Assembly (NCBI GenBank): GCA_900473795.1
Contig: UCMT01000057.1
Coordinates: 1 to 64,000 of the forward strand
Direction: 5' to 3'
Length of the DNA: 64,000 nucleotides
From: Hyphomicrobiales bacterium
Lineage (GTDB): Bacteria > Pseudomonadota > Alphaproteobacteria > Rhizobiales > Rhizobiaceae
Shown: positions 23,278 through 57,608 of the stretch, piece by piece
Layout: each line of letters begins with the position of its first letter
Position numbering within the stretch: position 1 is the stretch's first letter
The notes under the pieces: generated by a model
What the model was told of the DNA's origin: nothing
Database searches by the model: none
What the model saw: only the letters and a program-made list of their open reading frames with translations
Made by a program: the position numbers and the translations under genes

Positions 23278-24396
<1,119 letters not shown>

Positions 24397-33980: not shown

Positions 33981-34027
33981 ATACTATATTTAGTGTTTGC
34001 AGCCAAAATCAGCACAAGATACAGGAT
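33981..34027. promoter_or_regulatory. Tandem NrdR boxes upstream of nrdJ
   Basis: Site 1 (33981-33996) is ATACTATATTTAGTGT and matches the NrdR consensus ACACTATATATAGTGT at 14 of 16 positions. Site 2 (34012-34027) is weaker (about 11 of 15 consensus positions). Their starts are 31 bases apart, which is one of the spacings expected for NrdR tandem boxes. NrdR represses ribonucleotide reductase genes according to ATP/dATP status. The sites end about 130 bases before the nrdJ ATG. Confidence 0.7.
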
Positions 34028-34159
34028 AACCCGAAACGGGTTTCCCACATGGATGCGGAAACAAAGGCTGGCTGCGCAATCACCCGTGCGGCCGGGCGGG
34101 GACATTTCGTCCGAGCGCTTCGGCGGTTCGGGCATGCGGCAAACAAAGGACAAGGGACA

Positions 34160-41648: not shown

Positions 41649-41772
41649 CAGTTCTGGTCCCCTAGCTTCCGGACGAGCGTCTCCCTAGGTATTCCGCTCG
41701 GTTCTTCACGCGAACCTCCCATAGTCAGCGTAAGACTGGGTGCACTATGCAGATGCGATCTAAAAGCGGGGA

Positions 41773-41794
41773 GTATGTTACTGTAACCTACATG
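41773..41794. promoter_or_regulatory. Operator-like palindrome, site 1
   Basis: Core GTTACTGTAAC (41777-41787, perfect palindrome around T), flanked by GTAT and CTACATG. The reverse strand reads CATGTAGGTTACAGTAAC-ATAC, the same as sites 2-4. It lies 125 bases before the DUF900 gene and 300 before the DUF3604 gene. Confidence 0.7.
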
Positions 41795-41979
41795 CCTTTC
41801 GGCTCGCAGCTACCCCACCAGCATCCACGATATCCTGTCAGATTCCAGGCAAAACGTCCAAAACAGAGCGTGCCGGGCCATGCGAGGTGCAATGGTCGAA
41901 AATAGCCGCGTCAAATGAATTTCACTCGTCAGCGAGACTCCGGAGCGGGCGCGCGTCCTCGTATGGGGCCGAATGCGGG

Positions 41980-41999
41980 ATGTAGGTTACAGTTACACC
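41980..41999. promoter_or_regulatory. Operator-like palindrome, site 2
   Basis: ATGTAGGTTACAGTTACACC shares ATGTAGGTTACAGT with the reverse of site 1; the right half is GTTAC instead of GTAAC. It lies about 100 bases before the DUF3604 gene, a suitable place for a promoter-linked operator. The rest of 41649-42097 holds no gene. Confidence 0.65.
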
Positions 42000-42097
42000 C
42001 TTTCCGATTTTCCGGGCAGTGCTAACCTCCTTCAATCTGTCGACGCTGGCCGACTTGCGCAGCAGGGGAAGCAACCGATCATCAGGGAGTGACGCTC

Positions 42098-44071
42098 ATG
42101 CAGGAAGTGACTATCTGGCGTAAAAAACGGCCTCTGAGGAAACTCGCGATCGTGGCGTTGCTCGCGTCGGGAGTGTCCCACCAGACATGGGCGCAGGACG
42201 GCGTTCACACCGACATCGGCGACATCGACCAGACCACAGGCGAAAGCGTCTTTCCAAAGAAGCGACCCTATTCTCCCTGGGCGGGCCGAAACTTCCCGAT
42301 GCGGCCGCTGTTCGGCGACACGCATCTGCATACCGCCCTCTCCTTCGATGCGGGCGCTGCGGGTGCAAGGATCGGGCCGCGCGAAGCCTATCGATTTGCC
42401 AAGGGCGAGGAGATAACCGCCTCCAGTAAGCAGCCCGTCAAGCTCTCGCGCCCGTTGGATTTCCTCGTGGTGACCGACCATTCCGACAATCTCGGATTCT
42501 TCTCGGACTTCATCGCTGGCAAGCCGGAGATCCTGCAGAACGACATGGCCCGGAACTGGTACAACATGATCCAGGACGGCAAAGGGGCTGCGGCGGCCTA
42601 CGACATCGTCATGACGTTCTCTCAAGGCAAGTTTCCCGAGGACATCCTGTATGCGCCGGGTTCTCCCGCCTACCGCTCGACGTGGCAGAGCATCATCGAC
42701 GCGGCCGAGGAGGCCAACGAGCCGCGGCGTTTCACAGCCTTGATCGGCTATGAATGGACATCGCTTTCCAAGGGCAACAATCTGCACCGCAACGTGATCT
42801 TCAGGGACAACGGCGACAAGGCCGCGATGATCGAGCCGTACACAACGCAGCCTCCCCTTGGAAGCAACAACCCTCGGGACCTTTGGAAGTGGCTGGCGAA
42901 CTATGAGGACAAGACGGGCGGCCAGGCGTTGGCGATCGCCCACAACGGCAACCTTAGCAACGGGACGATGTTCCCCATCGTCGAATCGTTCACAGGGAAG
43001 CAGATCGATCGGGAGTACGCCGAGCAGCGTGCCCGATGGGAGGTGCTCTACGAAGCAACCCAGATGAAGGGAGACGGGGAGACGCATCCCCTGCTCTCGC
43101 CGAACGACGAGTTCGCTAGCTTCGAGCGCTGGGACAAGGGCAACCTTGATCTCAGCGAGAAGAAAACGCCGGAGATGCTTGAGTTCGAGTACGCCCGTTC
43201 GGCGCTGCAGAACGGCCTCAAGCTCGAAGACAAGCTTGGCGTCAATCCCTACAAGTTCGGGCTCGTTGGCAGCACCGATTCCCACACAGCACTTTCGACC
43301 GCCGATGACGACAACTTCTGGGGCAAGACGGGGGCCTCGGAACCGAGCGCACAACGGGCGGGGCATCCGTTCATGCAGAACAAGCAGCTTAGCCTCAGCA
43401 TCATGGGCTGGGAGCAGACGTCTTCAGGGTATGCCGCGGTCTGGGCGCAAGAGAACACGCGCGCGTCAATCTTCGACGCCATGAAGCGGCGTGAGACCTA
43501 TGCGACGACGGGACCACGCATGGCCGTCCGCTTCTTCGGGGGCTTCGACTTTGACGAAGCGGACGCCAAGGGCCGCAGCCCGGCGATCGCTGGCTACACC
43601 AAGGGCGTGCCGATGGGCGGGGATATCGGCCCGGCCGCCGATGGAAAGGTCCCGACATTCCTCGTAGCGGCCCTCAAGGATCCGATCGGCGCGAACCTCG
43701 ACCGTTACCAGATCGTGAAGGGTTGGCTGGACGCTCAGGGAGCGGTGCACGAAAAGGTCTATGATGTCGCCTGGTCCGGTGATCGCAAGCCGGGGTCGGA
43801 CGGCAAGGTTCCTGGTGTCGGAAACACCGTCGACGTCGCCAACGCCACGTTTACCAACACGATCGGCGCATCGGAACTGATCGCCTACTGGAAGGATCCG
43901 GAGTTCGATCCCGCCCAGAAGGCTTTTTACTACGGGCGCGTGATCGAGATCCCGACCCCGCGCTGGACGGCATATGACGCGAAGTACTTCGGGGTCACGA
44001 TGCCGCCGGAAGTGCGCATGGAGACCACGGAACGGGCTTACACATCACCGATCTGGTACAATCCCTCCTGA
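42098..44071 (+). CDS. DUF3604 (PHP-like) periplasmic protein
   Basis: A 657-residue secreted protein of the DUF3604 family. A signal peptide (to about residue 32, WAQ) is followed by PHP-like metal ligands: FGDTHLHTALSFDAG (His76, His78), VVTDHSDNLGF, IAHNGN and VGSTDSHTAL. These suggest a metal-dependent hydrolase in the periplasm, perhaps a phosphoesterase; family substrates are undefined. The ATG at 42098 has GGGAG upstream; a GTG three codons earlier is possible. Followed by prolyl isomerase and HupE/UreJ genes, a grouping I recall from other Proteobacteria. Confidence 0.87.
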   Translation: MQEVTIWRKKRPLRKLAIVALLASGVSHQTWAQDGVHTDIGDIDQTTGESVFPKKRPYSPWAGRNFPMRPLFGDTHLHTALSFDAGAAGARIGPREAYRFAKGEEITASSKQPVKLSRPLDFLVVTDHSDNLGFFSDFIAGKPEILQNDMARNWYNMIQDGKGAAAAYDIVMTFSQGKFPEDILYAPGSPAYRSTWQSIIDAAEEANEPRRFTALIGYEWTSLSKGNNLHRNVIFRDNGDKAAMIEPYTTQPPLGSNNPRDLWKWLANYEDKTGGQALAIAHNGNLSNGTMFPIVESFTGKQIDREYAEQRARWEVLYEATQMKGDGETHPLLSPNDEFASFERWDKGNLDLSEKKTPEMLEFEYARSALQNGLKLEDKLGVNPYKFGLVGSTDSHTALSTADDDNFWGKTGASEPSAQRAGHPFMQNKQLSLSIMGWEQTSSGYAAVWAQENTRASIFDAMKRRETYATTGPRMAVRFFGGFDFDEADAKGRSPAIAGYTKGVPMGGDIGPAADGKVPTFLVAALKDPIGANLDRYQIVKGWLDAQGAVHEKVYDVAWSGDRKPGSDGKVPGVGNTVDVANATFTNTIGASELIAYWKDPEFDPAQKAFYYGRVIEIPTPRWTAYDAKYFGVTMPPEVRMETTERAYTSPIWYNPS

Positions 44072-44139
44072 TCGCTGCGGCTTTTAGAAAAGGGTCGCGG
44101 CAGCAAGCCGTGGCCCGCCAAGACGGGAGGCATGGCACA

Positions 44140-45024
44140 ATGGTCGCCGGGAAAATTCTCAAGGAACCGCTTCTTCATTTCCTGATAGCAGGGGTCGCCA
44201 TATTCGCGGCCTATTCTGCCATGGACCAGTCGCCAACCTCTGAAGACAGACGCTCCATAGAGGTTGGAAACGGGCAGCTCGCGCAGTTGTTCGAGACCTT
44301 CTCCCGGACGTGGCAGCGCCCGCCGACGGAAGCCGAACTCAACGCTCTTATCGAAGGATATGTGAAGGAGGAGGTGTTCTTCCGGGAGGGCCAGGAGATG
44401 GGCCTGGACCAGGACGACGCCATCTTCCGCCGCCGCATGCAGCAGAAGCTCGAATTTCTGCTGGAGCCAAGTGCGGAAGAACTCACGCCGACCAGCGACG
44501 AGCTGGCTGCCTACTTCAAGGCGCACTCGGGCAGGTACGATCAGCCCGCGAAGCTCTCCTTCCATCAGATATTCTTCAACAGCCCGCGCCCTGGCGATGA
44601 TCGCGAACTGGCGGCCAGGACGGCGCTCGCCAGTTTTGCGGACCGCAATGATGATGATTGGACGGAAACGCTCGGCGACGCCACCACGCTGCCGTCCGGC
44701 ATGGATCTGACCGATACAAAGGAGATCACAGCGGTGTTCGGCCATGATTTCGTAGTCGGTGCCCTGTCCGCAACCGAGGGGGGATGGTCCGGCCCGTTCC
44801 GGTCAGCCTATGGGGTCCATCTGGTCTACATCGACCGGAAGATCGGCGCGAGCACTCCTGCCCTTCCCGATGTCCTGCAGAAAGTGCGATCCGACTGGGA
44901 GAGCGACCAGCGCAGGGAGATTGCCGAGAAGCGCTACGCCGACATGAAAAGCAAATACGACATCACGATATCAAGGCCAGCGGACGAGGCAGCGACCGTG
45001 ATCAACACCTCCGGTGTCAAATGA
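44140..45024 (+). CDS. Parvulin-type peptidyl-prolyl cis-trans isomerase
   Basis: A 294-residue protein with one N-terminal membrane helix (about 12-28) and a periplasmic part like SurA/PpiC-family foldases: long helical chaperone region (LIEGYVKEEVFFREGQEMGLDQDDAIFRRRMQQKLEFLLE) and a reduced parvulin domain (KLSFHQIFF, WSGPFRSAYGVHLVYI). It may help fold the exported proteins of this cluster. GGGAGG lies 9 bases upstream of the ATG. Its stop overlaps the next start (ATGA). Confidence 0.85.
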   Translation: MVAGKILKEPLLHFLIAGVAIFAAYSAMDQSPTSEDRRSIEVGNGQLAQLFETFSRTWQRPPTEAELNALIEGYVKEEVFFREGQEMGLDQDDAIFRRRMQQKLEFLLEPSAEELTPTSDELAAYFKAHSGRYDQPAKLSFHQIFFNSPRPGDDRELAARTALASFADRNDDDWTETLGDATTLPSGMDLTDTKEITAVFGHDFVVGALSATEGGWSGPFRSAYGVHLVYIDRKIGASTPALPDVLQKVRSDWESDQRREIAEKRYADMKSKYDITISRPADEAATVINTSGVK

Positions 45025-45998
45025 TCCGGCTCGTCCTCTTCGTTCTCGCTTGCCTCTTCGCGATCTCAGCGCAGGCACACGAACTGCGGCCAGCCTTCCT
45101 GCAGGTCGATGAAGTGGCTCCCGAGCAATATGCGGTCACATGGAAGGTGCCTGCGCGTGGCGAGCTCCGGATGGCGCTCTACGTCCACTTTCCGGCAGCG
45201 TGCAGGCAGGTGTCCGAACCTGTCGAAGGATACATCGATACGGCCCATGTCAGCCGATGGCGCGTAACCTGCGACGGAGGCCTAACGAACCAGACCGTCT
45301 CGATAGACGGACTGACGTCGACCTACACGGACGCGCTCGCGAGGATCGTCAGCCTCGACGGAACCATCCAGACGAGCCGTATCTCGCCCAAATCTCCGGA
45401 GATGATCGTGGCGGATCGGCCGACCGCGCTTGCGACGGCCGGCACCTATTTCTCGCTGGGTGTCGAGCACATCCTGCTCGGCTTCGATCATCTGCTGTTC
45501 GTCCTCGCACTGCTCCTGCTCATACGCGATCTGCGCTCGCTGCTTCTGACGATCACCGCGTTCACCGCCGCGCATTCCGTCACGCTCGCCTTTTCCGCAC
45601 TCGGGATCGCGGCAGCCCCACAGCCGCCGGTCGAGGCGCTCATTGCGCTCAGCATCATGTTCGTCGCCTCCGAGATCGTCCGGGGTAGCCAGGGCAATCT
45701 CTCCAGCCGCTATCCGTGGCTGGTCAGCTTCCTGTTCGGCCTTCTTCACGGCTTCGGTTTCGGTGGCGCCCTGCGCGAGATCGGGCTGCCGCAGAAGGAC
45801 GTGCCGCTGGCTCTGCTCACCTTCAATCTCGGCGTCGAGGTGGGTCAGCTCGTCTTCGTCGGCGTGACGTTGCTGGGCGTTGCTTGCATCAGGCTACGGC
45901 CGGACTTCAATGTCTCGCGCGCGCGGCTGTTGCTGGCGTACTTTGTCGGCACGGTTTCGGCGGTCTGGTTTGTCCAGCGCGTCGCAGGTTTCGCCTGA
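45021..45998 (+). CDS. HupE/UreJ family membrane protein
   Basis: A 325-residue protein: signal peptide (ending AQA), an extracytoplasmic N-terminal domain of about 140 residues, then about seven transmembrane helices. The family motif GVEHILLGFDHLLFVLALLLL is near residue 150, and FLFGLLHGFGFGGAL follows. HupE/UreJ proteins are nickel (or other metal) transporters; this long form with an extra domain may have another role. Translationally coupled to the isomerase gene (4-base overlap). Confidence 0.87.
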   Translation: MIRLVLFVLACLFAISAQAHELRPAFLQVDEVAPEQYAVTWKVPARGELRMALYVHFPAACRQVSEPVEGYIDTAHVSRWRVTCDGGLTNQTVSIDGLTSTYTDALARIVSLDGTIQTSRISPKSPEMIVADRPTALATAGTYFSLGVEHILLGFDHLLFVLALLLLIRDLRSLLLTITAFTAAHSVTLAFSALGIAAAPQPPVEALIALSIMFVASEIVRGSQGNLSSRYPWLVSFLFGLLHGFGFGGALREIGLPQKDVPLALLTFNLGVEVGQLVFVGVTLLGVACIRLRPDFNVSRARLLLAYFVGTVSAVWFVQRVAGFA

Positions 45999-46122
45999 TG
46001 GCGCGATGGCGCCGAGCTGGTTCTTTCGTGATTAGCCGAACATACATGTACTTTTGTCCGGACTTCACTATCATCGGCACGTATTACTTCCGGCAGTCCC
46101 CGAATCAAACAACGGAGTGCAC

Positions 46123-46911
46123 ATGCAATTCTTTGGCTACAAATGCAGATACGTTGGACTGGCATTGATCCTCGCCTCGGCCACGCCCGTGCTCGCCGCT
46201 GACGAAACTTCTGTCATCGGGGCGGCTCCCGTCGACAGCGGCTGGAAGTACCAGGTGGGGCTCGACGGATGGTTCACGGCCCTGGACGGCAGTATCGGGG
46301 TGCGCGGTCTTCCGGCAGCGGATGTGAATGTGTCGGCTCTCGATGCAATCGAGCACCTTGAGGGTGTGTTCGCGGGGTCCTTCCGGGCGTCGGGTGATAG
46401 CTGGCTGCTCTATTCCGATTTCATGTGGTCGAAGATTTCGGCCGATGCGGATGTCGGTCCCTTCGGCGGCAATGTGGGTTTCGAGCAGGAGCAGATCCTG
46501 TTCACCGGCCTCGTCGGCTACGAGCTTCCGGTGAATGTCGAGAACATGGAGCTCTACGCTACAGGCGGCTTGCGCTATCAAAAATACAAAGTCGACATAT
46601 CCATCGACCCCGTCTTCTTTCCGGGGACCGACCGCAGCGGATCGCAAAGCTGGGTCGATCCGATCGTGGGCATGGCGCTACACTACGACATCAACGACCG
46701 ATGGTTCGTCGACGTGATGGCAGATGTCGGCGGCTTCGGCATCGCTTCGGACATCACCCTGCAGGGAACGGCGACGGTGGGCTACAACTGGACCGACACG
46801 ATCTCGTCGTCCTTCGGCTACCGGGCGCTCTACACCGACCATCAGGACGGCGGCTTCCGGTATGACGCCACTCAGCATGGCCTGTTCACCCGGTTGTCGT
46901 TCAACTTCTAG
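46123..46911 (+). CDS. Outer-membrane beta-barrel-like protein
   Basis: A 262-residue protein with a signal peptide (ending LAA, about residue 26), alternating beta-strand pattern (YQVGLDGWFTALDG, FRASGDSWLLYSDFMWS, ATVGYNWTDTISSSFGYRALY) and a C-terminal aromatic RLSFNF, the usual barrel ending. The ATG at 46123 has GGAG upstream. Likely a porin-like or surface protein; ligand unknown. Last of the DUF3604-isomerase-HupE group, with 4-base tail overlap on the convergent CobW gene. Confidence 0.75.
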   Translation: MQFFGYKCRYVGLALILASATPVLAADETSVIGAAPVDSGWKYQVGLDGWFTALDGSIGVRGLPAADVNVSALDAIEHLEGVFAGSFRASGDSWLLYSDFMWSKISADADVGPFGGNVGFEQEQILFTGLVGYELPVNVENMELYATGGLRYQKYKVDISIDPVFFPGTDRSGSQSWVDPIVGMALHYDINDRWFVDVMADVGGFGIASDITLQGTATVGYNWTDTISSSFGYRALYTDHQDGGFRYDATQHGLFTRLSFNF

Positions 46912-47990
46912 GACAGAGCAGCCATAGGTTCCAAGGCCGTGGGCTGCGCGTGCACCTGCGGCGGCTCCGCACGGCATCGGTCGAACACTTGGCGCAGCTC
47001 CACTGCATCCTTTCCATCATGCGCTCCGATGGCGATGATACGGGTTCGCGGTTCCCGGCCGTTCCATTCGTCCGCGACTGCAACATCCACCCGCTTGCCG
47101 ACAACTTGAAGGATGACCCGGCGGCCCGGTTCTTCGGCGACATGAACGACGCCTTTGCATCGATAGACGCTGGCGGGCAGCTTTCGTGCCGCCTCCCGCA
47201 AGGCTTCCAGAGAAAGAGGTATCGCCGTCTCGTAGCTGCACGTGCTGAAGCGCTTTGCGTGGTTCTCTCTGCGATAATGAAGGCGATGCCCACAATTTTG
47301 AACGCTGCAGTGCGGAGAATGATCGAAGTCCTCGACCGGAGGAGCGGCGCCGAGCTGCATGGTATCAAACCGACCTACCGACAGTAGGATCTCCAGGGGC
47401 AAATTCCCGTGGGACGCCTGAACGAGACGACAACGGTGGAAGCGTTCATCAAGCCATGCCTTGATCCGTTCAATCTCCTCCGTGGCGACAAGATCGACTT
47501 TGTTGAGAATGAGCATGTCTGCAAATGCCACTTGGCGAAGCTTCAATTCCATCAGTTCGGGTGCCGCGAATACCTGCTCCGCATCAATGACACACATGAT
47601 GCTGTCCAACCGGATGCGATCGCGCATGTTCTCGTCCATAAAGGTGAGTGCGATCCCGGACGGGTCGGCCACTCCGCTGGCCTCGAGCAGTATGTATTCG
47701 GGCTGTTCGGCACGCGTCATCACCTGCATCACCGCGGCGACGAGATCGTCGCGAATATTGCAGCAGACGCAGCCATTGGCGAGATTGATGACATCCCCCT
47801 CGCTTTCGACGCCGACGACAAGCTCGGCATCGATGTTGATCGAACCGAAGTCATTCACCAGCACCGCGACCCGAAGGCCGTGATCGCCCGTAAGAATGCG
47901 GTTCAAAAGCGTGGTTTTGCCTGCCCCGAGAAATCCGGTCAGGACTGTAAGGGGGATGGCTTCCATGCCGGACTGGTCGGTGTACGTCAT
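46908..47990 (-). CDS. CobW/COG0523 GTPase metallochaperone
   Basis: A 360-residue G3E-family GTPase. P-loop GFLGAGKTTLLN (residues 19-30), metal motif CVCC within NGCVCCNIRDDL (74-77), NKVD specificity motif, and C-terminal CobW domain with a His-rich middle (HSPHCSVQNCGHRLHYRRENHAKR). Such proteins deliver zinc or another metal to target enzymes. The start at 47990 follows GGAAGGAA. It sits 52 bases after the MBL hydrolase gene, its possible client together with the DUF3604 protein. Confidence 0.9.
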   Translation of the reverse strand: MTYTDQSGMEAIPLTVLTGFLGAGKTTLLNRILTGDHGLRVAVLVNDFGSINIDAELVVGVESEGDVINLANGCVCCNIRDDLVAAVMQVMTRAEQPEYILLEASGVADPSGIALTFMDENMRDRIRLDSIMCVIDAEQVFAAPELMELKLRQVAFADMLILNKVDLVATEEIERIKAWLDERFHRCRLVQASHGNLPLEILLSVGRFDTMQLGAAPPVEDFDHSPHCSVQNCGHRLHYRRENHAKRFSTCSYETAIPLSLEALREAARKLPASVYRCKGVVHVAEEPGRRVILQVVGKRVDVAVADEWNGREPRTRIIAIGAHDGKDAVELRQVFDRCRAEPPQVHAQPTALEPMAALS

Positions 47991-48042
47991 CTCGATTTCC
48001 TTCCGGAGTTTCGCCGCCGAGGTTGTGTTGCGATTACCGGCC

Positions 48043-49527
48043 CTATTTCGCCGCCTCGATGGCATCGATGATTGCCTGAACCTCCGCAGCCTTGGTGGAT
48101 AGCTTCGCCTGTGCCATTTTTGCCTTCTTAAGAACTATTTCGCGGACATCGATCGTGAAGTCTTGCGGGAAATTCGGCTCCGGCTCGCGATAGACGTCGG
48201 ACGGATAGTATTTCTTCGGGTCGATCTCCCGATCGCGGACGGCCTGCTCCTGAACGTCGGCGACCCTATGCCGCGGATTTGGAAATTTGACCTCCAGATT
48301 CCTCGGGCTCAGGTCAAACAGGCCGATGGCTTCTTTCGGGCTCGGGCGAGCCATGTTGCCCGCTTCGGGGAGCGCAGCCTTGCGCGTCCAGACGGCGTCC
48401 TTGGTGACGTTGACGACCACGACGTCGGGCGCGCCGAACTGGAACAATCCGCTATAGTGGACGCGGATCCCGGCCGTGATCTCCGGGATCAATTCCTCGT
48501 CGTAGCTGACATGCGTGACCATCGCCAGGCGTGGCTGGATCTTGTCGAACATGTAGCCGACCGCGTAATGCGGGCTGTGTGCCTGATCGATCGTGTTTTG
48601 GGCCATGATCGGTGGCATGCCGAACTTCAACGCCTGGAGGTTCGCCACGTCTGGCTGCACCTCGGTCACGAAGACATCCACACCCTTGGCCAGTTCCAGA
48701 GACAGTTCGTCCGGCCGCCCGTCGCCGGTCCAGACGAACGACAGCCCGTTCCAGTCGAGCCTGTAGGCCGAGGCACCGTCCTTCGTGTGCGCGCGCCGCC
48801 AATGGCGAATAACGACGCCGTCCTTGTCGTAGCAGATGCCATTGTCGTCGCGGAAGTCGAACTCGTTGACCTCGATCTCGTAGCCGTCGCCGATCGGGAG
48901 GGCGTTGAAAGAATCCGTGTGCCAATGGGTCATCATCTTCATGCCTTCGATCATGTGCTTGATGCCGTCCTGGGGCGACCGGCCCGATGGCCCGTGGACG
49001 CGCAGCGGCTTCCAACGCCCCATCCAGGGGGCAAAGGCGTAGAGATACGGAAGATCCGCGTAGTGATCGACATGGAGATGAGTGAAGAAGATATCGTTGA
49101 CCGTCTGCAACGGCACGGCCATCGCGATGATGTTGCGCATGCAGCCGGAGCCGAAATCAAAGAAGAACCGGTTGCCGTTCCCAAGTTCGACCATGATGCA
49201 GGTGCCGGCCTGCGCCTTCGTGACCGGAATCGGCGTACTGCCGATGAAGGATATCCGCATCTCGTCGGGGCCGATCGGTTCCTGACCTGGGTAGTAGATG
49301 TTGTTGCTGACGAGATAGGGTGTCGGTCGGTAGTAGGGCGGTAGCGTGATCCCGCCGCTCGGTACGCCGCCGTAAGGGTTCTTCACCGTTGCAGTCGCAG
49401 TTTCTTCTTGCGCCTGCGCCGATGCCACTGCGGTCGTCGACAGAGCTGCAGCTCCGGCCAGCCCCGCTGTCTTGAGGGCATCACGGCGGGTCATGCGCCG
49501 CTGACCAGCGTCTGTTTCATCTGTCAT
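48043..49527 (-). CDS. Tat-exported MBL-fold metallo-hydrolase (GntH-like)
   Basis: A 494-residue secreted metallo-beta-lactamase-fold protein. The N-terminus has a twin-arginine signal (TRRDALKTAGLAGAAAL, residues 13-29). Metal motif HLHVDH is at 150-155 and a second histidine region at VTHVSYDEEL. It resembles proteins often named after GntH of guanitoxin biosynthesis, but no guanitoxin genes are present, so that name does not tell the function. It probably folds with its metal in the cytoplasm before Tat export, consistent with the adjacent CobW chaperone. GGAG precedes the ATG. Confidence 0.87.
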   Translation of the reverse strand: MTDETDAGQRRMTRRDALKTAGLAGAAALSTTAVASAQAQEETATATVKNPYGGVPSGGITLPPYYRPTPYLVSNNIYYPGQEPIGPDEMRISFIGSTPIPVTKAQAGTCIMVELGNGNRFFFDFGSGCMRNIIAMAVPLQTVNDIFFTHLHVDHYADLPYLYAFAPWMGRWKPLRVHGPSGRSPQDGIKHMIEGMKMMTHWHTDSFNALPIGDGYEIEVNEFDFRDDNGICYDKDGVVIRHWRRAHTKDGASAYRLDWNGLSFVWTGDGRPDELSLELAKGVDVFVTEVQPDVANLQALKFGMPPIMAQNTIDQAHSPHYAVGYMFDKIQPRLAMVTHVSYDEELIPEITAGIRVHYSGLFQFGAPDVVVVNVTKDAVWTRKAALPEAGNMARPSPKEAIGLFDLSPRNLEVKFPNPRHRVADVQEQAVRDREIDPKKYYPSDVYREPEPNFPQDFTIDVREIVLKKAKMAQAKLSTKAAEVQAIIDAIEAAK

Positions 49528-49706
49528 GACGTGTTCTCCTCTATCTGATCATCCGAACTCAACGGCGTGACGGAATGGTGGCAGGCGGGTGGCCAGGAAG
49601 CGCCACGTCAAGCGGGCATCAGCATCCGTTCGAAACTGCTCTTCCAAGGGAAGCTCGTTTGTCGATGACGGCCGCCGGGATCTCGCTCGACGGCGGTTGA
49701 CTCAGG

Positions 49707-49943
49707 TCAGCAGTTGTAGACGCCGTTCGCGCACCGTACGGCGACCCGGCCGACGGTCCGCCGTGTCGTGCGGCGCGCAACGCCTGCGACGCTGACAGGC
49801 GTAAGCGGACGGCCGACGCGGGCCTCGGCACTCGAGACGAAGCCGGACACGCCGGGGAACGAGACCCGTTCGCCCGCTTCAAGGCTAAACAGGCCGACGA
49901 CCACGGCCAGCAATGCTATCTTCAGTTTCCGGGACGGGTTCAT
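49707..49943 (-). CDS. Small secreted basic protein
   Basis: A 78-residue protein with a membrane/signal segment (KIALLAVVVGLFSL) and a mature basic part GRPLTPVSVAGVARRTTRRTVGRVAVRC. The VSVAGVARRTTRRT stretch recurs in small secreted proteins of alphaproteobacteria, as I recall, often near DUF2092 or DUF1254 genes. Its ATG overlaps the stop of the upstream DUF2092 gene by 4 bases. Function unknown. Confidence 0.75.
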   Translation of the reverse strand: MNPSRKLKIALLAVVVGLFSLEAGERVSFPGVSGFVSSAEARVGRPLTPVSVAGVARRTTRRTVGRVAVRCANGVYNC

Positions 49944-50743
49944 TTGGCTTCTCCCATGGCAAAGTGGTCTGGCAGATCGTCGATATCGGGTAGTGCTTCC
50001 GGACCGACCTGTTTGGCGTCACTCGTGTTTTTGAACCCGTAGTCGGCCGCCACGACGTCGATGCCCGTCTTCCAGTCCGTTATTCGGATGTCGTACTGCG
50101 GCCCTTGTTCGATCTTGGTCGAGGTGATGGCGTATCTGCAGGGATAGGGGCGCTCGCCTTGCGCGATCCAGATCTGCCAGTCGACTTCGGCGGTGCGGAA
50201 CGCCAGATGATCGCATTCGACGCCGCCGATCACGCCGCTGCCGAGGTCCTTGACGTCGGTCACGTCGGGCATCAGTTCGTCATAGACGTTCGGAAGAAGG
50301 AGGTCGGCGGCGGGAAGCGGACGACCAAACTTGTCGCGCAACACCTCGATCAGGTTCTCGACGGTGCCCGGAACCTCGGCTTGGGTGTAGAGGTTGGCGT
50401 TCTTTCCGAGCAGGGTCACGGTCTTGCCATCGAAACTCATCTCGACGTCGGCGAAGCCGCCAGTCCGAGTCGCCCTGATCTTGTCCGGCCGTCCGAGGTC
50501 GACCCTGCCGGAGCTTGCCAGAAGCAGCTTCTGGTTATCCTTGGTGACGACCTCCAGATCGGAGTCATAAGCGAACGAAATCGCCTTCTGCTCACCGAGG
50601 TAGTTCGACATCCTCTTGAGGAGATCCTTCGCTTCGGCTTCGCCCGCATGCACCACGGTCGAAGACATGAAGACGGCGAGTGCCGTCCACAGAAGTCCGG
50701 TTCTTGCCGCACGCATGGTATTTCGCGTTGTCGTGCTCGTCAT
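49940..50743 (-). CDS. DUF2092 periplasmic protein
   Basis: A 267-residue exported protein (signal to about residue 33, VHA) of the DUF2092 family, LolA-like in fold: KDLLKRMSNYLGEQKAISFAYDSDLEVV, then GRVDLGRPDKIRATRTGGFADVEMSFDGKTVTL. It may bind a lipid or hydrophobic molecule in the periplasm. Coupled to the small basic protein downstream. A half-operator (50811-50823) lies about 70 bases before its start. Confidence 0.85.
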   Translation of the reverse strand: MTSTTTRNTMRAARTGLLWTALAVFMSSTVVHAGEAEAKDLLKRMSNYLGEQKAISFAYDSDLEVVTKDNQKLLLASSGRVDLGRPDKIRATRTGGFADVEMSFDGKTVTLLGKNANLYTQAEVPGTVENLIEVLRDKFGRPLPAADLLLPNVYDELMPDVTDVKDLGSGVIGGVECDHLAFRTAEVDWQIWIAQGERPYPCRYAITSTKIEQGPQYDIRITDWKTGIDVVAADYGFKNTSDAKQVGPEALPDIDDLPDHFAMGEAK

Positions 50744-50810
50744 GTGCGTTTCCTCCTCCGCCCGGTTATCGGACGGCGAAGGGATGCTACGCCTGCTTTA
50801 CCGCGAGCGC

Positions 50811-50837
50811 GTGTAACATACGGTATCATCGATGTAG
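50811..50837. promoter_or_regulatory. Operator-like half-site, site 5
   Basis: GTGTAACATACGG contains GTAACATACGG, identical to one arm of site 3, and an ATGTAG follows at 50832. The second palindrome arm is degenerate. It lies upstream of the DUF2092 gene, in the short gap after the regulator stop codon. Confidence 0.45.
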
Positions 50838-50845
50838 CTTCTGGC

Positions 50846-52663
50846 TTAGGGGGCTTCAATTTCCGAGGCTTCGGACGATGCGCCAGGCACGGGTTCCGCG
50901 GTCGCCGGAACTGGCATCCCGGCTTTGCGCATCGCGGCGAGGAAGCGCGCCTGGTCGTCGGGCTGCATGTTGCGCTGTTGCATTTCCTCGACGACGTTCG
51001 GCATGAACGCCGGCCGCATCCTGACGAAGAGTTCGCCCGCGCGCCGCGCGTCGGCTTCCATCCCCGCTTCCGCGAAAATCATCGCCGCGACCAGGTGAAA
51101 AATCGGAAACTTCTGCAGGTCCGCCTGCCTGATCTCCCTTACGGCTCGCTGATGGTCTCCGAGCATGGCGGACGCAAGCGCGCGCGATCCGCGGTAAAAA
51201 CCCCCGCCGCCGGGATTGAGCGCGATGGCATTGTCGAGAAGGCTCGCGCCCCGTTGCGATTGCCCCGCAAGATTGAGGAGCGCTCCGAACTCTCCCATGA
51301 GTTCCGTGTCGTTCGGATTGATCGCCAGTGCCCGCTCCCCGACACGGATCGCCTCCTCCGGCTGCCGGGTGAAGAACAACGCGTTCATCAGCGCCTGGAG
51401 CGCGCGCGTGTTTCCCGGCTCCACCTGTACCGCCTGCCGCGCCGTCTGGAGCGCCCGTTCCAACGGGTTGACGGCGGCCGCGACTGGATTGAACTGGAAC
51501 CGTCCCTCATCGAGGTAGACGATGGAAAGCATCGCCCATGCCGTTGCATAGGTCGGATAGCGCGCCACCGCGCTCTCGAGACAGTCACGAACAAGGGCGT
51601 GGCGTTCGGGGCTGAGCTCGGCGCGGTAGGCGTAGAAGTTCAGGGTGCATTCGTAGGCACCGAGGTCATCCGGTGGCGGGCGGGACGCATCCGCCTGGGC
51701 CACGATGCCGTACGGCTGCGCGACGGCGGTCGCGACCTGGCCTGCGACATCTGCCTGTATTGCGAACAAGTCGCGGGAGCCGAGTCTGTTGTCGTAATTT
51801 TGCGACCACAGGATTGCGCCATTATCCGTGTCGACAAGCCGGGCGGTCACGCGCATGTGGTCCCCCGAAACTCGAACGCCACCTGAGAGCAGATAGCGCG
51901 CGCCGACCTGGTCGCGGACCTGCCTGATGTGGGCATCGGGCGTCAGGCTGTTCGATGTCTCGCGGCCGAATACCCTTATCTCCTTGAAACGGGGCAATGT
52001 TGTCAGCAGCTCTTCGGTGAGGCCGAGCGTATAAAGCTTCGCCTGCGGCCCCTCGCCGAGATCGGCGAACGGTGCGATCACGATGGTCGGCACGTCGGGG
52101 CCGATTACAGTTGTTTCGGTCGCAGGAGCGACAGAGGGGAGCGTCGACACCCAATAGGCTCCACCAAACAAGATGAAGGCGGCGGCTGCGATGCCGGAGA
52201 TGGTTCGCCATGCCGGCAACCACCACTCCTGGTTCGGCGGGAGGTAGCGCATGGCCCAATGGGCAGGCTCGATCTGCTCACCGTCCAATTCGGGAGATGG
52301 AGGTGCGCTCCAGGTGAACACCGGCGCGTATCCGCCCTTGGGAATATCGATGCGGATCGGATCGGTCCGTCCGGCGGTGAGGTAGTAGCGTTCGAGCACG
52401 CGACGAAGACGACCTGCCTGTATCCGGACGACGGGGTCGTCCTGTGTAAAATTCACGTCACGCTTGAAGACTTCGAGAGCGATGGAATAGCCCTTGATCC
52501 GGTTCGCGTTGCCAGCCAGCGACTCCTCGACGATATAGCTAAGGAATGCGGCCCCGCGGCCGACGTTCGGAAACTCTGTGCTGGTGATGATGCGCTGGAG
52601 CTGGGCGCGAATCTCCTCCTCGCACGGCGGCTTGCGGACTTCGACGTCTGTTGATGTCAGCAC
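50846..52663 (-). CDS. Membrane-anchored wHTH-like regulator with TPR domain
   Basis: A 605-residue protein. Residues about 15-117 are a winged-helix-like region (AAFLSYIVEESLAG, VVRIQAGRLRRVLERYY, ending in the wing-like IDIPKGGYAPVF) often seen fused to TPR proteins in alphaproteobacteria. A single transmembrane helix is at about 153-173. A periplasmic domain follows (TIVIAPFADLG... GLTEELLTTLPRF... ARYLLSGGVRVSGDHMRVTARLVD), like the CadC/adenylate-cyclase-associated TolB/FlgO-type domain. The C-terminal half is TPR-like repeats. The start is GTG with GGAG upstream; site 3 lies 37 bases before it. Likely a one-component sensor-regulator of this cluster. Confidence 0.8.
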   Translation of the reverse strand: MLTSTDVEVRKPPCEEEIRAQLQRIITSTEFPNVGRGAAFLSYIVEESLAGNANRIKGYSIALEVFKRDVNFTQDDPVVRIQAGRLRRVLERYYLTAGRTDPIRIDIPKGGYAPVFTWSAPPSPELDGEQIEPAHWAMRYLPPNQEWWLPAWRTISGIAAAAFILFGGAYWVSTLPSVAPATETTVIGPDVPTIVIAPFADLGEGPQAKLYTLGLTEELLTTLPRFKEIRVFGRETSNSLTPDAHIRQVRDQVGARYLLSGGVRVSGDHMRVTARLVDTDNGAILWSQNYDNRLGSRDLFAIQADVAGQVATAVAQPYGIVAQADASRPPPDDLGAYECTLNFYAYRAELSPERHALVRDCLESAVARYPTYATAWAMLSIVYLDEGRFQFNPVAAAVNPLERALQTARQAVQVEPGNTRALQALMNALFFTRQPEEAIRVGERALAINPNDTELMGEFGALLNLAGQSQRGASLLDNAIALNPGGGGFYRGSRALASAMLGDHQRAVREIRQADLQKFPIFHLVAAMIFAEAGMEADARRAGELFVRMRPAFMPNVVEEMQQRNMQPDDQARFLAAMRKAGMPVPATAEPVPGASSEASEIEAP

Positions 52664-52699
52664 GGCCCGCTCCTCTCCCCAGAGCACCCGATAGCACCC

Positions 52700-52718
52700 G
52701 TATGTTACAGTAACATAC
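52700..52718. promoter_or_regulatory. Operator-like palindrome, site 3
   Basis: GTATGTTACAGTAACATAC is a perfect 19-base palindrome around A. It lies 37-55 bases before the regulator start and about 100 before the opposite small gene, fitting autoregulation of a divergent promoter. Confidence 0.75.
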
Positions 52719-52815
52719 TCCCTAAAGGCTCCCGCATCCACGATACTACATGGGCAGGCGCGCACGTTGCAGTAGTGGCTTAGCGGTAGTCCTTTAGAGG
52801 GAAGAAAACAAGCAG

Positions 52816-53079
52816 ATGGTTGACAACGGGACCGCTGTCAAAACCCGCTTTCCGAGCCGTGCCCAGGCGATCGACGCGCTTCTGGCCCGCGACGAAGGCT
52901 TCCGGGACATGTGTTCAGACTATACGACCGCGGAGGAAGAACTACGAAAATGGCGGTCGTCATCCGAACAGCACCGGGACGCCCGCATCACCGAGTACAG
53001 CGAACTCGTCGAGGAACTGGCGGCGGAGATCGATGCGACGCTCGACCGTGCAGCGGTCGTGCCCTTTCCAAAGCGGTGA
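52816..53079 (+). CDS. Small hypothetical protein (87 aa)
   Basis: An 87-residue soluble, acidic helical protein (RAQAIDALLARDEGFRDMCSDYTTAEEELRKW, ending AAVVPFPKR). Such short proteins occur in rhizobia next to sulfatase or TPR regulator genes, as I recall. The family has no known role. A GGGAAG lies a little far upstream of the ATG. It is divergent from the regulator with site 3 between them. Confidence 0.6.
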   Translation: MVDNGTAVKTRFPSRAQAIDALLARDEGFRDMCSDYTTAEEELRKWRSSSEQHRDARITEYSELVEELAAEIDATLDRAAVVPFPKR

Positions 53080-53089
53080 ATGTCGGGGC

Positions 53090-53106
53090 GTAGGTTACCG
53101 TAACAT
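53090..53106. promoter_or_regulatory. Operator-like palindrome, site 4
   Basis: GTAGGTTACCGTAACAT has core GTTACCGTAAC (53094-53104), a perfect palindrome around C, with the same GTAGG left flank as sites 1 and 2. It lies before the degraded membrane-protein genes at 53218-53580. Confidence 0.7.
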
Positions 53107-53217
53107 CCTGCGCCCGATGAGACATGTCGGACAAAACCGACCGCGTGAAACGGCGGTTGTGCAAGCTCGCCCGCCACCGCCGCCGATTCCTTCTCGACGC
53201 AGATCCCCTTCGTCACC

Positions 53218-53331
53218 ATGGCCATCGGCTACACGGTGTTGACAACGGCGCTGCTCTGGCGACAACGGCGGGCCACTGATACTTCTCCCCTGAACGCGGA
53301 TTGGAGGTGGATCGTTGGGATTGAGGAATAG
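53218..53331 (+). pseudogene. Fragment of a small membrane protein
   Basis: A short ORF (37 residues) starting MAIGYTVLTTALLW, one membrane helix. The same frame upstream (53150 on) reads SSPATAADSFSTQIPFVTMAIGY but lacks a start codon, so the N-terminus seems lost. The stop overlaps the next gene. The ATG at 53218 could still be used. Confidence 0.35.
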
Positions 53332-53789
53332 CGGAGCGGCGTACGGAATCCTGCTTGCCGGACAGACCGTCGCGGCGTCAACCTTGTTCTGGATCGTTTT
53401 CCCGCTGTTCCAGCAGATCATCACGCATCTCGGGGAGCAGCAGGAACTGAGCTACTCCCAGCAAGTCGCCACGATCTGCAGCGCCACGCTGCTTCACGTC
53501 TGCTATTGGACCCGGCTGAAGTGGGTGCCCGTCGTCGCGCCATTCCACAACGTATTCGTGGCGCATCTCTGTTCGTTTGTAAGCGGTGTGCCACTCAAAC
53601 TTGGACGAGATAAATCCGCTATAATTGCTGCAGGCACTGGATCGCCATGGCAACTTTGCGCCATGTGTGGACCCCTGTATCGATTGGCCGCGCTGGCTAA
53701 ACAGGAATTTCCGGTGACGCCACGAGATTGGCCACGACGGTTTGGGTGTGGTGCCCCCCGCGACAGACTCGGGCTAACAAGCCCCATGG

Positions 53790-53800
<11 letters not shown>
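53315..53800 (+). pseudogene. Truncated membrane-protein gene
   Basis: TTG start with GGAGGTGGATCG upstream. The first 88 residues (NSGAAYGILLAGQTVAASTLFWIVFPLFQQ, then PVVAPFHNVFVAHLCSFVS) look like an intact multi-span membrane protein. From about 53579 the sequence changes character (GVPLKLGRDKSAII...), with no hydrophobic pattern. The gene seems cut at 53579, where an IS66-like GTAAGCGG begins, and the remaining frame runs on by chance to 53800. Confidence 0.55.
53579..53625. mobile_element. Possible IS66-like terminal remnant
   Basis: GTAAGCGG at the point where the preceding gene is disrupted resembles IS66-family ends, which begin GTAA. No transposase fragment and no matching second end were found within the next 900 bases, so this is weak and may be chance. 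Confidence 0.25.
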
Positions 53801-54346
<546 letters not shown>

Positions 54347-54510
54347 CGCGTAATCGTGCCAAGATTAAGGTTGGATTGGAAGTTCCAGCGGTAGGGTCGA
54401 ACCGACATACCGGATGGGCATGACCTGACTGATCATATCCTCCCGGCAGGAGCAGTTCAACGTCCGCTTCGCGCCACAAATGCCCCTCCAGCTAAAGTTG
54501 ACTTCCACCG

Positions 54511-55485
54511 CTATCGGGCAATGCAACGGAACCCCAGATGACCAGTCGCCGTGTCGATCGGTTGCGGCATGCGGGCCGCAGGGCGATAGCGCCGGCAGTA
54601 ATTCGGCGCGCACAGATATGAGCCGCCCTTCATGACTTTGCGGGGAACCTTGATAGTGGGTTGGAGCGGATCGTAGCTCTCCTCCGGCTTCCCGCCTCTC
54701 GGATCATGGATCGTACAGCACGGGCTGTCGATCTTGGCATGTTCCTGATACCAGTCGGTCGTCCATTGCCAGACGTTGCCCGCCATGTCGTGAAGGCCGT
54801 AGCCGTTAGCAGGGAACGAGCCAACCGGGGCCGTCCCTTCGAAACCGTCCGCCCGCAGGTTCTGCCAGGGAAACTCGCCCTGCCAGGTGTTTGCCATGTG
54901 CCGTCCTGCGGGCATCCATTCGCTGCCCCAGACAAATTCGGCTCCGTCCAGACCCCCACGCGCCGCACGTTCCCATTCGGCTTCCGACGGGAGCTCCTTG
55001 CCCGCCCATCGTGCGAAGGCTTCGGCATCCCCGTAGCCAACGTGGACGACCGGATGATTGGCGAGCCCCTTGATCGAGCTCGACGGCCCGCGTGGATGTC
55101 GCCAATTTGCACCTTTCACATAAGTCCACCAATTGTAAACATTGCCAAGGGCGACGCGGTGTCTGGGCTTGCTGAAGACGACGGAGGCCGGCTCCAGCAT
55201 GTCTGGCAGGGCACCAGGATAATCCTCGGGGTTCACGGGACGCTCGGCAAGCGTGACATACCCGGTCGCTTCGACAAAGCGGGCAAACTCACGGTTCGTG
55301 ACCGTATGGACATCCATCCAGAAACCTTCCACCTCCACCTTGTGGGCGGGCGCTTCCTCCGGATAGTGGTGATCCGAGCCCATAAGAAATGCGCCGCCCG
55401 GAATCCAGACCATTTTTTCGAAGGGTGGATTTGCAGCTCCTTCTCCCCCTGCTTCGGAATGATTGCCTTCATAGCGGGCGGTCAT
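54511..55485 (-). CDS. Formylglycine-generating enzyme family protein
   Basis: FGE/SUMF1-type enzyme that oxidises the active-site cysteine of sulfatases to formylglycine. The 324-residue protein has PGGAFLMGS, ELPSEAEWERAARGG, GNVWQW and the C-terminal catalytic CAPNYC (Cys292, Cys297) in GGSYLCAPNYCRRYRPAARMP, the copper-binding pair of active FGE. GGAG precedes the ATG at 55485; another ATG is four codons earlier. It follows a Cys-type sulfatase gene, its probable substrate. No signal peptide is seen, so it acts in the cytoplasm before export. Confidence 0.93.
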   Translation of the reverse strand: MTARYEGNHSEAGGEGAANPPFEKMVWIPGGAFLMGSDHHYPEEAPAHKVEVEGFWMDVHTVTNREFARFVEATGYVTLAERPVNPEDYPGALPDMLEPASVVFSKPRHRVALGNVYNWWTYVKGANWRHPRGPSSSIKGLANHPVVHVGYGDAEAFARWAGKELPSEAEWERAARGGLDGAEFVWGSEWMPAGRHMANTWQGEFPWQNLRADGFEGTAPVGSFPANGYGLHDMAGNVWQWTTDWYQEHAKIDSPCCTIHDPRGGKPEESYDPLQPTIKVPRKVMKGGSYLCAPNYCRRYRPAARMPQPIDTATGHLGFRCIAR

Positions 55486-55555
55486 TGGCCACTCCATGGA
55501 TGGAACCTGCTCGGCAGCGGCGCGATGAAGACCGAGGCAAGCCGCTTCGCCCTTG

Positions 55556-55577
55556 GAGCCCCGCGCGCGCGGGGCTC
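55556..55577. repeat. Perfect GC palindrome between sulfatase and FGE genes
   Basis: A 22-base perfect palindrome (arms GAGCCCCGCGC) in the 113-base gap between the two co-directional genes. There is no T run after it, so it is more likely an mRNA-stability or attenuation hairpin that lowers FGE expression than a true terminator. Confidence 0.6.
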
Positions 55578-55598
55578 ATGCATAACTGGATGCAGATG

Positions 55599-57233
55599 TC
55601 AGTTCCTCCCGCCCTCCTGCAGTTTCGACAGCACCTCGTCGAGCGAGAAGCTGCCTGGCTTTTGCCGAGGCGGGAAATCAACGTAGGTCTGCAGGTGCCG
55701 GGCCACAAAGGCCTGCGCCGGCACAAGCGCAAAGGCATGCTCAACCCGCCATCTCGGGTAGTCGCCGGCGACATGCTGGGCGATCTCGAACGGGTCTGCG
55801 CGCAGGTCGATGAGCTTCGGAAAGCGCAGCGTTATCAACGGATCCTGCCACACGTCGAGCCCCTCGGCCCGCTGCTCCATGAACACAAGCTTCCAGCGAT
55901 CATAGCGCAATGCAGCAAGACTTCCATCGTCCGTCCAATAGAAGTATTCCTTACGCTCACTTGGCCCAGTACCGGCGAGAAGCTGGCGCTGGTTGTACCC
56001 GTCCAGATGCACCTTGAAGGTCTTGCCCGCGGCCTCGTAGCCGGTCAGGAGCTTTGCCTTTACATCCGGCTCGCCTGCGGCGGCCACGAATGTCGGGACC
56101 CAGTCTTCGTGGGAGACGATGTCGTTGATTTCCGTGCCGGGCTTGATGACGCCCGGCCAACGCATCACCCCCGGAACTCGATAGCCGCCTTCCCAGTTGG
56201 TATTCTTCTCGCCGTGAAACGGCGTCGTGCCGCCGTCTGGCCATGAGAAGAGCTCTGCACCGTTATCCGTGGTCCACAGCACGATGGTGTTGTCGGCAAT
56301 GCCGAGGTCGTCCAGTTGCTTGAGAAGCTGGCCGACCATGCCGTCGAACTCCGTCATGCCGTCGGCCAGCACGCCCAGACCGGTCTTGCCTTGCGACTCA
56401 GGCTTCAGATGCGTGTAAATGTGCATGCGCGTCGCATTGAACCAGCAGAAGAAAGGCTTCGCGGCTTGATGCTGTCGGCTGATGAAATCCTTTGCCGCTC
56501 CCAGGAATTCCTCGTCCACTGTTTCCATGCGCTTCTTGGTGAGCGGTCCGGTGTCCTCGATTTTCTGCTTGCCTACCCTGCCGAAGCGCGGATCCTCGGT
56601 CGGATCGTCTGTGTCGGTTGCGACGCATTTAAGCACGCCGCGCGGACCGAACGTCGCGCGGAACTGGGGATCCTTCGGATAGTCCGGGTTCTCCGGCTCC
56701 TCCTCGGCGTTGAGATGATACAGATTGCCGAAGAACTCATCGAAGCCGTGAACGGTCGGCAGGAATTCGTTGCGGTCGCCCAAATGGTTCTTGCCAAACT
56801 GGCCGGTCGCGTAGCCCTGCGGCTTGAGCAGTTCGGCGAGCGTTGGATCCTTGTCTGACAGGCCCTCCTTGGCGCCCGGTAAACCGACCTTAAGCAGACC
56901 GGTGCGGAAGCAACTTTGCCCGGTAATGAACGCGGCGCGCCCGGCGGTGCAGGATTGTTGAGCGTACAGGTCGGTGAAGATCGCGCCTTCGTCGGCAATG
57001 CGGTCAATGTTGGGTGTCTGATATCCCATCTGGCCGCGGTTGTAGGCGCTAGCGTTCCACCAGCCGATATCGTCACCAAAGATGACGAGGATGTTGGGTT
57101 TTGGGCTTGTAGCCTGGGCCATTGCGCTCTTGCCGGTTGCAACATTAACGACTGTGCCCATTGCGGACATCGCGATCAACGATCCGCCCGCGAATAGAAC
57201 GTCCCGCCGGCGTAGGTACGGATGACTTGTCAT
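55599..57233 (-). CDS. Cys-type arylsulfatase 1 (Tat-exported)
   Basis: A 544-residue sulfatase that hydrolyses sulfate esters. A twin-arginine signal (LRRRDVLFAGG, residues 7-17) marks Tat export. Metal ligands are in FGDD (53-55). The sulfatase signature CTAGR begins at Cys95, the residue to be converted to formylglycine by FGE. GKNHLGD, the DNGAE segment and HGEKNTNWEGG fit the alkaline-phosphatase fold. An operator-like site lies 70 bases upstream. Probably transcribed with the FGE gene. Paralogue of the second sulfatase at 60556. Confidence 0.94.
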   Translation of the reverse strand: MTSHPYLRRRDVLFAGGSLIAMSAMGTVVNVATGKSAMAQATSPKPNILVIFGDDIGWWNASAYNRGQMGYQTPNIDRIADEGAIFTDLYAQQSCTAGRAAFITGQSCFRTGLLKVGLPGAKEGLSDKDPTLAELLKPQGYATGQFGKNHLGDRNEFLPTVHGFDEFFGNLYHLNAEEEPENPDYPKDPQFRATFGPRGVLKCVATDTDDPTEDPRFGRVGKQKIEDTGPLTKKRMETVDEEFLGAAKDFISRQHQAAKPFFCWFNATRMHIYTHLKPESQGKTGLGVLADGMTEFDGMVGQLLKQLDDLGIADNTIVLWTTDNGAELFSWPDGGTTPFHGEKNTNWEGGYRVPGVMRWPGVIKPGTEINDIVSHEDWVPTFVAAAGEPDVKAKLLTGYEAAGKTFKVHLDGYNQRQLLAGTGPSERKEYFYWTDDGSLAALRYDRWKLVFMEQRAEGLDVWQDPLITLRFPKLIDLRADPFEIAQHVAGDYPRWRVEHAFALVPAQAFVARHLQTYVDFPPRQKPGSFSLDEVLSKLQEGGRN

Positions 57234-57608
57234 CGAATTCCCTCCCGTTTGTGGAACCAGAACCGACCGTATCTCCCCGAACTACAACGTACCCCCGTTT
57301 CGATATGTAGGCACGTAACATTAGGGTGTTCTTGCAAATGTTGTAATTTGGGGGGCCTCGACGTGCTGAGCTACGAGACACTACGGAAGTGACCTCCCAG
57401 AGGTGTGGCGGTCCGATATCAGGTTTGAGCGGCCTTCTCGCCATCCCGCAGGAGTAGTATGATGCTGCACTTTCTGGGAGAGGCTTAGGGCGGCAGAGCC
57501 GGGGCGCATCTACACGACCAGAGCGACCTTCAAAACCCGATACCAATGCGGCACCGACGGGAATGTGAAGCGCAAACTCTGTATCCATTACCGCAAAGGG
57601 GACGCAGA
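57234..57608. other. Divergent intergenic region, sulfatase 1 / DUF1254 genes
   Basis: About 375 bases holding the promoters of both flanking genes and operator-like site 6. ORFs here lack recognisable sequence or ribosome-binding sites. Confidence 0.5.
57303..57321. promoter_or_regulatory. Operator-like site 6 (variant)
   Basis: ATATGTAGGCACGTAACAT keeps the outer halves ATGTAGG and GTAACAT of the motif, but the centre is two bases shorter. It lies about 70 bases upstream of sulfatase 1. It is the least certain full-length site. Confidence 0.4.

Follow-up and report, generated by a model that had tools for sequence, protein, structure and literature searches.

A clustered palindrome in a rhizobial genome as the probable operator of a neighboring membrane-anchored regulator

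The recurrence of one palindrome between the genes of a single cluster on contig UCMT01000057.1 of a Hyphomicrobiales bacterium (assembly GCA_900473795.1) raises the question of whether these repeats are operators and, if so, which protein reads them and with what effect on the adjacent genes. The analysed stretch, hereafter the window, comprises positions 1 to 64,000 of the contig. A first-pass annotation, made from the letters alone, had described the motif and proposed that it represents a specific operator rather than chance.

Direct reading of the sequence recovered all four main palindromes where they had been annotated, namely GTATGTTACTGTAACCTAC at 41773–41791, GTAGGTTACAGTTACACCC at 41982–42000, GTATGTTACAGTAACATAC at 52700–52718 and GTAGGTTACCGTAACATCC at 53090–53108. 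As had been reported, three of them carry a perfect GTTAC-N-GTAAC core and the site at 41982 has GTTAC as its right half. The 52700 site, a perfect 19-bp palindrome, lies between two divergent genes, here called REG (50846–52663, minus strand; 605 aa) and Sp (52816–53079, plus strand; an acidic small protein of 87 aa), and the 53090 site is located just beyond the stop codon of Sp. The 41773 site is found upstream of both a DUF900 alpha/beta hydrolase gene (40329–41648, minus strand; Pfam PF05990) and a DUF3604 gene (42089–44071, plus strand; Pfam PF12228), and the imperfect 41982 site is upstream of the latter. The intergenic location given for all four holds provided that REG starts at the GTG at 52663; the 52700 site would fall inside a mechanical open reading frame that begins at 52765. 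The GTG start fits the alignment of the orthologues and a purine-rich ribosome site.

A scan of the window for GTTAC-N-GTAAC with up to one mismatch returned exactly these four sites, so that the motif is indeed found nowhere else in the window. In dinucleotide shuffles of the window the mean was 0.31 matches, and four were reached in 0 of 100 shuffles. In the whole genome (6,385,884 bases in 101 contigs), three exact copies of the core are present, all in the window (41777, 52704, and 53094), against nine of its reversed control. The 19-bp consensus GTAKGTTAC-N-GTAACMTAC, hereafter type I, had five genome matches at up to three mismatches, four in the window and a fifth outside it with three mismatches; its reversed control likewise had five. 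Because the reversed control is equally frequent (5 vs 5), the striking feature of the motif is its clustering and not its genome-wide number. The genome scan which the first-pass annotation had called for thus placed nearly all copies in this cluster, the motif being infrequent in the genome as a whole. A looser repeat, GTA-N3-TAC-N-GTA-N3-TAC, has exactly two copies in the genome, both in the window, and none for the control.

The training set of a weight matrix comprised 46 distinct sites of orthologous loci, leaving out the window and the near-identical species L039. The four sites obtained the top scores of the window (36.9, 35.1, 29.2 for the 53090 site, and 22.4 for the 41982 site) against a best score of 12.6 in 100 random first-order Markov sequences of 64 kb, a comparison which is partly circular as the training sites were picked by their similarity to the consensus. 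On the shuffles, the genome scan, and the matrix scores, a chance origin of the cluster was rejected. The two weaker sites of the annotation fared differently. The one at 50811 scores 7.0, similar to a match at 24031 (6.9), but it corresponds to a degenerate everted element in promoter register (see below). The one at 57303 is outside the top 25 matrix scores and lacks a promoter register, and homologues of SulfA have a type I or type II site in 0/7 cases; it was not counted as an operator. A 15-bp GTAGGCACGTAACAT at 57307 is identical in L039.

A scan of public genomes with REG gave 52 named loci, 31 of which show 53–97% identity in the best segment and belong to Pararhizobium, Rhizobium, Phyllobacterium, Agrobacterium, and Methylocella. 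The nearest relative of REG is that of Pararhizobium sp. YC-54 (97%). A type I site (up to three mismatches) precedes the REG match by 52–228 bp in 24 of the 31 loci, and none is present at that position in L047, L056, L057, L061, L062, L063, and L065. The 31 loci and the window contain 77 type I sites, 75 of them outside called genes (in unannotated loci, these are our own calls and not public annotation). The 52700 site and its copy in L039 make up the remainder; in both, the gene caller placed the start of REG too far upstream. A relaxed type I pattern gave 72 matches in the 31 loci and none for the reversed control, counts which are not independent as orthologous promoters are related.

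In a broader search of 297 genomes of the family, the type I motif was found at up to two mismatches in 17 genomes and the reversed control in about 38. A gene with the REG domain or an Sp gene adjoins the site in seven of those 17, that is, in the genome of the window (G000) and, within the 3-kb loci scanned, in G001, G128, G194, G208, G226, and G234. At up to one mismatch, six genomes have the motif and six have REG at 53% identity or more, with four common to both (hypergeometric P = 7e-7, with thresholds chosen after seeing the data and no correction for phylogeny). Two genomes with REG, G057 and G023, lack a type I site in its vicinity, and two (G175 and G270) have the site but a REG of only 41–44% identity. 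Order-wide, the motif at up to one mismatch is present in 4/397 genomes and the control in three; a close REG occurs in three of those four, and the fourth, G638, is without REG in the 3 kb fetched.

A second arrangement of the same half-sites was detected upstream of the DUF900 hydrolase and DUF2092 genes and, once, of a metallo-hydrolase gene. In this type II element, GTAACAT-N5-ATGTTAC, the half-sites of type I are reversed (everted), with a similar 10-bp pitch and an equal distance to the -10 element. At up to two mismatches, the 31 loci and the window have 26 matches, with none for the reversed control and none in other clades; at three mismatches the matches are 36 against 3 for the control, and 7 against 3 in other clades. 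Half-sites in direct repeat are few, and most are inverted or everted. In Sinorhizobium meliloti (L111, L114, and L115), REG lacks a type I site, and a type II element with two mismatches lies just past its end. In our genome, the cluster has no strict type II site nearby; the window holds only the degenerate copy at 50813–50831 (minus strand; four mismatches), upstream of the DUF2092 gene (49940–50743, minus strand; Pfam PF09865), and this is the annotated 50811 site. Elsewhere in the same genome, two matches at up to two mismatches on other contigs, against three for the control, were discarded.

The putative targets fall into particular families. A gene was scored when the 400 bp upstream contained a type I site with a matrix score of 20 or more, or a type II site with no more than two mismatches, in 37 sequences comprising the 31 loci, the window, and five plasmid loci, with L114 left out. 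The rates that follow are biased upward for families absent from the window, chosen because a member adjoined a site; distant homologues were not filtered out, and the families without a site are not prechosen controls. Sp, the most constant putative target, had a type I site in 33/33 cases. A site precedes REG in 27/37 (type I missing in 10/37), the DUF900 hydrolase in 22/27 (type I or II), DUF3300 in 10/13, HlyD in 13/22, and DUF2092 in 7/13, all of type II. High proportions were also found for a GH-like enzyme (4/5), a 154-aa protein and a cysteine-rich protein (3/3 each), an 809-aa protein of sulfatase type and a 173-aa protein (2/3 each), and an exchanger (1/1). Lower ones were obtained for a 270-aa protein (1/3), the metallo-hydrolase and DUF1254 (1/4 each), and DUF3604, which is preceded by type I in 2/9 and is a putative target in the present genome. 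No site was found before HupE, g46054, or SulfA (0/7 each), CobW (0/4), the formylglycine-generating-type enzyme (FGE), or the peptidyl-prolyl isomerase (0/3 each).

In several relatives, the 173-aa gene or an HlyD gene has a site upstream, on the far side of Sp. In L110, a DUF3300–DUF2950 pair is preceded by a type I site. In the passages of PMC4653623 which treat them, these two families are described as co-localised, induced in both RNA-seq symbiosis studies considered and without a functional hint, and they are singled out as compelling candidates for plant interaction. Eight plasmid Sp loci had been held out: a site adjoins Sp in five of them (score above 12, hexamer at offset 24; see below), only three reach the score of 20 used above, and one, L119, shares its flank with the training locus L064. 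L121, L123, and L124 have no site next to Sp. Among further held-out loci, L110 fits the promoter register and L112 has the hexamer at offset 25.

The position of the elements relative to the promoters was examined by aligning the sequence downstream of them, with near-duplicates removed, and searching for the hexamer NAnnnT, which fixes the two positions most constrained in -10 elements. NAnnnT is located exactly 24 nt past the element in 18/19 Sp promoters, in 10/30 other type I targets and in 20/23 type II promoters (strand set by the downstream gene, L039 allowed at three mismatches), where about one would be expected at any offset in each set. If NAnnnT is the -10 element, then the palindrome spans about -54 to -36. 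The Sp promoters have a conserved TCCmCrAA at the -35 position and no -35 hexamer. In the window, the 52700 site has GATACT toward Sp at 52742–52747, the 41773 site has CATAGT toward the hydrolase at 41744–41749 (minus strand), and the 50813 element has TAGCAT toward DUF2092 (minus strand), all at offset 24. Toward DUF3604, the 41982 site has TAACCT at offset 23, one base short. No -10-like hexamer was found at offset 24 from the 53090 site on either strand, and this site has no evident target in the present genome. Toward REG, no -10 register was seen. The exact spacing to the -10 suits an activator centered near -45.

As for the protein that may read the sites, REG is the candidate offered by the cluster. 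It has an N-terminal domain of about 105 residues, a single hydrophobic helix, and then a FlgO-like and TPR-like part. Residues 15–118 (52310–52621, minus strand) are predicted to form a divergent winged-helix DNA-binding domain. The structure model of this domain (pLDDT 88.9) is nearest in fold to the winged helices of OmpR, PhoB, and CadC: the top 14 rows of a VIA-align search were all DNA-binding domains of the OmpR type, with Z below 8, and Foldseek alone gave no significant match. Sequence searches of the domain were empty in Pfam (no family for the window sequence at E up to 1), NCBIfam, PADLOC, and PDB. Pfam gave no significant match for 44 members carrying the domain, with four weak unrelated hits in one member each. 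Two alignments were made, one of 34 sequences (the window and 33 of the 52 loci, with L075 excluded for a stop codon) and one of 44. For other proteins of the family genomes, the match is confined to the C-terminal two thirds of REG. The N-terminal domain has only two matches in its own genome, and the locus of the second, distant one is without Sp; the 360 bp examined there contain no strong palindrome.

The helix at residues 155–173 (52145–52201, minus strand) is probably transmembrane. It is helical in the model, the top hydropathy windows start at residues 154–157, and hydropathy reaches 1.64 there against 1.37 at best elsewhere in the protein. The C-terminal part matches the periplasmic domain of CadC (3ly7, 3ly8, 3ly9, and 3lya) with E around 1e-5 over 307–333 columns, at an rmsd near 12 and ranked below generic TPR hits. 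On these models, REG is likely a member of the ToxR/CadC family. In several public plasmid records its orthologues are annotated as "adenylate cyclase", but no cyclase domain is present in REG among 12 Pfam families at E up to 1. No receiver domain was found either, and REG differs in this, and in its hydrophobic helix, from response regulators of the OmpR/PhoB type, whose half-sites are direct whereas those attributed to REG are mostly inverted or everted.

The closest known system is CadC of Escherichia coli, which is ToxR-like and shares with REG the predicted layout of a cytoplasmic winged helix, a low-confidence linker, a hydrophobic helix, and a CadC-like periplasmic part. In the part of PMC5430869 concerned with its DNA target, a quasi-palindromic site is proposed for CadC, with the DNA-binding domains modelled head-to-head, and the 17-mer given there, TAAACATTAAATGTTTA, resembles the arms of type II. 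The Cad1 site, as described in the same source (PMC5430869), is AT-rich and extends from -153 to -113, whereas the element attributed to REG is 19 bp long, specific, and promoter-adjacent with its center at about -45. The DNA-binding domain of REG, unlike that of CadC, is too diverged for the Pfam model, and the two systems also differ in their targets, in the partner gene Sp, and probably in their signal. By analogy, REG probably works like CadC, that is, as a tethered winged helix acting on a promoter via a head-to-head site.

Other clades of REG have different palindromes upstream. The motif CATGTAANTTACATG is exact in 2/297 genomes, and in both a REG homologue lies about 100 bp downstream of it. 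This check is only partly independent, since the loci in which the motif had been noticed included one of the two, G165 (L030). Clade-specific motifs were initially spotted by eye in upstream regions and counted later, so their counts are exploratory. For GCGTAANNTTACGC, with three matches against two for the control in the same loci, it is the position that speaks for the motif. In the more distant clades, a generic palindrome score lacked the power to establish palindromes. Two further patterns were observed: GCGTAA-NN-TTACGC about 140–160 bp before the REG match in L078, L081, and L082 (a Rhizobiales isolate, R. subbaraonis, and Kaistia), and GTAGGTTACAGTTATTTAC-like or GTAATTAACGGTAACCTAC sites 5–10 kb before REG in Mesorhizobium (L071, L074, L077, L084, and L086).

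Taken with their conservation in orthologues, their association with particular gene families and their fixed promoter register, the clustering of the sites upholds the annotated operator against chance. Judged from the sequence, the recurring palindrome very probably functions as a regulatory switch, and it is most likely bound by the neighboring membrane-anchored REG. The whole reading, in which the sites are operators of REG, an inner-membrane one-component regulator most likely activating its targets, appears to us quite probable. REG would be fixed in the inner membrane and its cytoplasmic winged helix would bind two 9-bp half-sites (GTAKGTTAC) 10 bp apart, placed head-to-head in type I or, more loosely, tail-to-tail in type II. 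At promoters with a -10 but without a -35 element, the bound protein would recruit RNA polymerase. Sensing may proceed via the periplasmic TPR-like part, and Sp may be the main output or a partner of REG. The candidate regulator, the everted element type, and the promoter geometry are new beyond the first-pass annotation. A repeat or iteron element was judged unlikely, as the elements lie upstream of genes in a fixed -10 register.

REG is probably an activator because the element covers -54 to -36 and the promoters keep a -10 and have no -35, and on this geometry activation rather than repression is most likely. REG may instead bind and repress by blocking the polymerase at the -35 region, since the element abuts the -35 position and, toward REG itself, stands 36 bp before the start codon, where it could act as a block. 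The exact register to the -10 and the conserved non-consensus TCCmCrAA at the -35 of the Sp promoters, as expected for activator-dependent promoters, make repression the less probable mode, unlikely but worth keeping in mind.

Two other proteins might occupy the sites in place of REG, and we regard both as improbable. Sp itself could be a DNA-binding autoregulator, or an obligate co-regulator, with REG among its targets. It is nearly always present (a homologue at E up to 1 in 50 of the 52 loci, weak at 0.059 in L078, and none in L065 and L089), every Sp gene of the main set has its type I site (33/33), and the site precedes Sp even where REG is kilobases away (L047, L056, L057, L062, and L063). 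Nevertheless, Sp is short and acidic (net charge -5) and has nothing significant in Pfam, PADLOC, or PDB searches, and the predicted DNA-binding fold belongs to REG. Moreover, REG of S. meliloti keeps a type II element alongside with no type I, and three of the eight held-out Sp loci have no adjoining site. A regulator whose gene lies elsewhere in the genome, such as one of the TetR or MarR kind, comes to mind in view of the compact symmetric palindrome, which is typical of soluble dimeric repressors and favored by TetR and MarR regulators. Such a protein, to which we assign the same low probability as to Sp, would leave aside that sites and REG tend to co-occur and adjoin each other and that the palindrome beside REG varies with the REG clade; no other regulator was recognised by Pfam among 20 neighboring proteins of the window.

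A search of the literature, judged by titles and the opening lines of abstracts, found nothing on this regulator or motif among the papers listed. A wider reading, to which we give as much credence as doubt, is that an undescribed alphaproteobacterial family of membrane regulators exists under the "adenylate cyclase" label, using half-sites of 10-bp pitch in either orientation with the -10 at 24 nt, with clade-own operators by the small partner gene and a rhizobial regulon that includes DUF3300–DUF2950. Genes that had none are now given a candidate regulator, operator, and regulon, and the "adenylate cyclase" annotation of several plasmid records may hide DNA-binding membrane receptors. Should a single protein accept both inverted and everted half-sites with the same promoter spacing, it would be useful for testing the flexibility with which pairs of tethered winged helices read DNA.

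The surroundings of REG and Sp also include genes for HupE, CobW, a metallo-hydrolase, a formylglycine-generating-type enzyme, sulfatases, and DUF1254 proteins. Beyond the 53090 site, at 53120–53800, the window has nothing but short frames and g53315, a membrane-protein frame of 161 aa; the HlyD and 173-aa genes, present on the far side of Sp in several relatives, were not detected there. The metallo-hydrolase at 48043–49527 scores 552 bits against a cut-off of 333 for GntH (NCBIfam NF041257) and adjoins a CobW-type GTPase, both being also present in L039, L066, and L112. At 33893–37960 lies a class II B12-dependent ribonucleotide reductase, with a 945-aa open frame on the opposite strand. The regions 54511–57233 and 60556–62211 include a formylglycine-generating-type enzyme gene, two sulfatase genes, and two DUF1254/DUF1214 genes; no operator was found in the window before the formylglycine-generating-type enzyme or the first sulfatase. 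In L060, two other sulfatase genes have an operator upstream.
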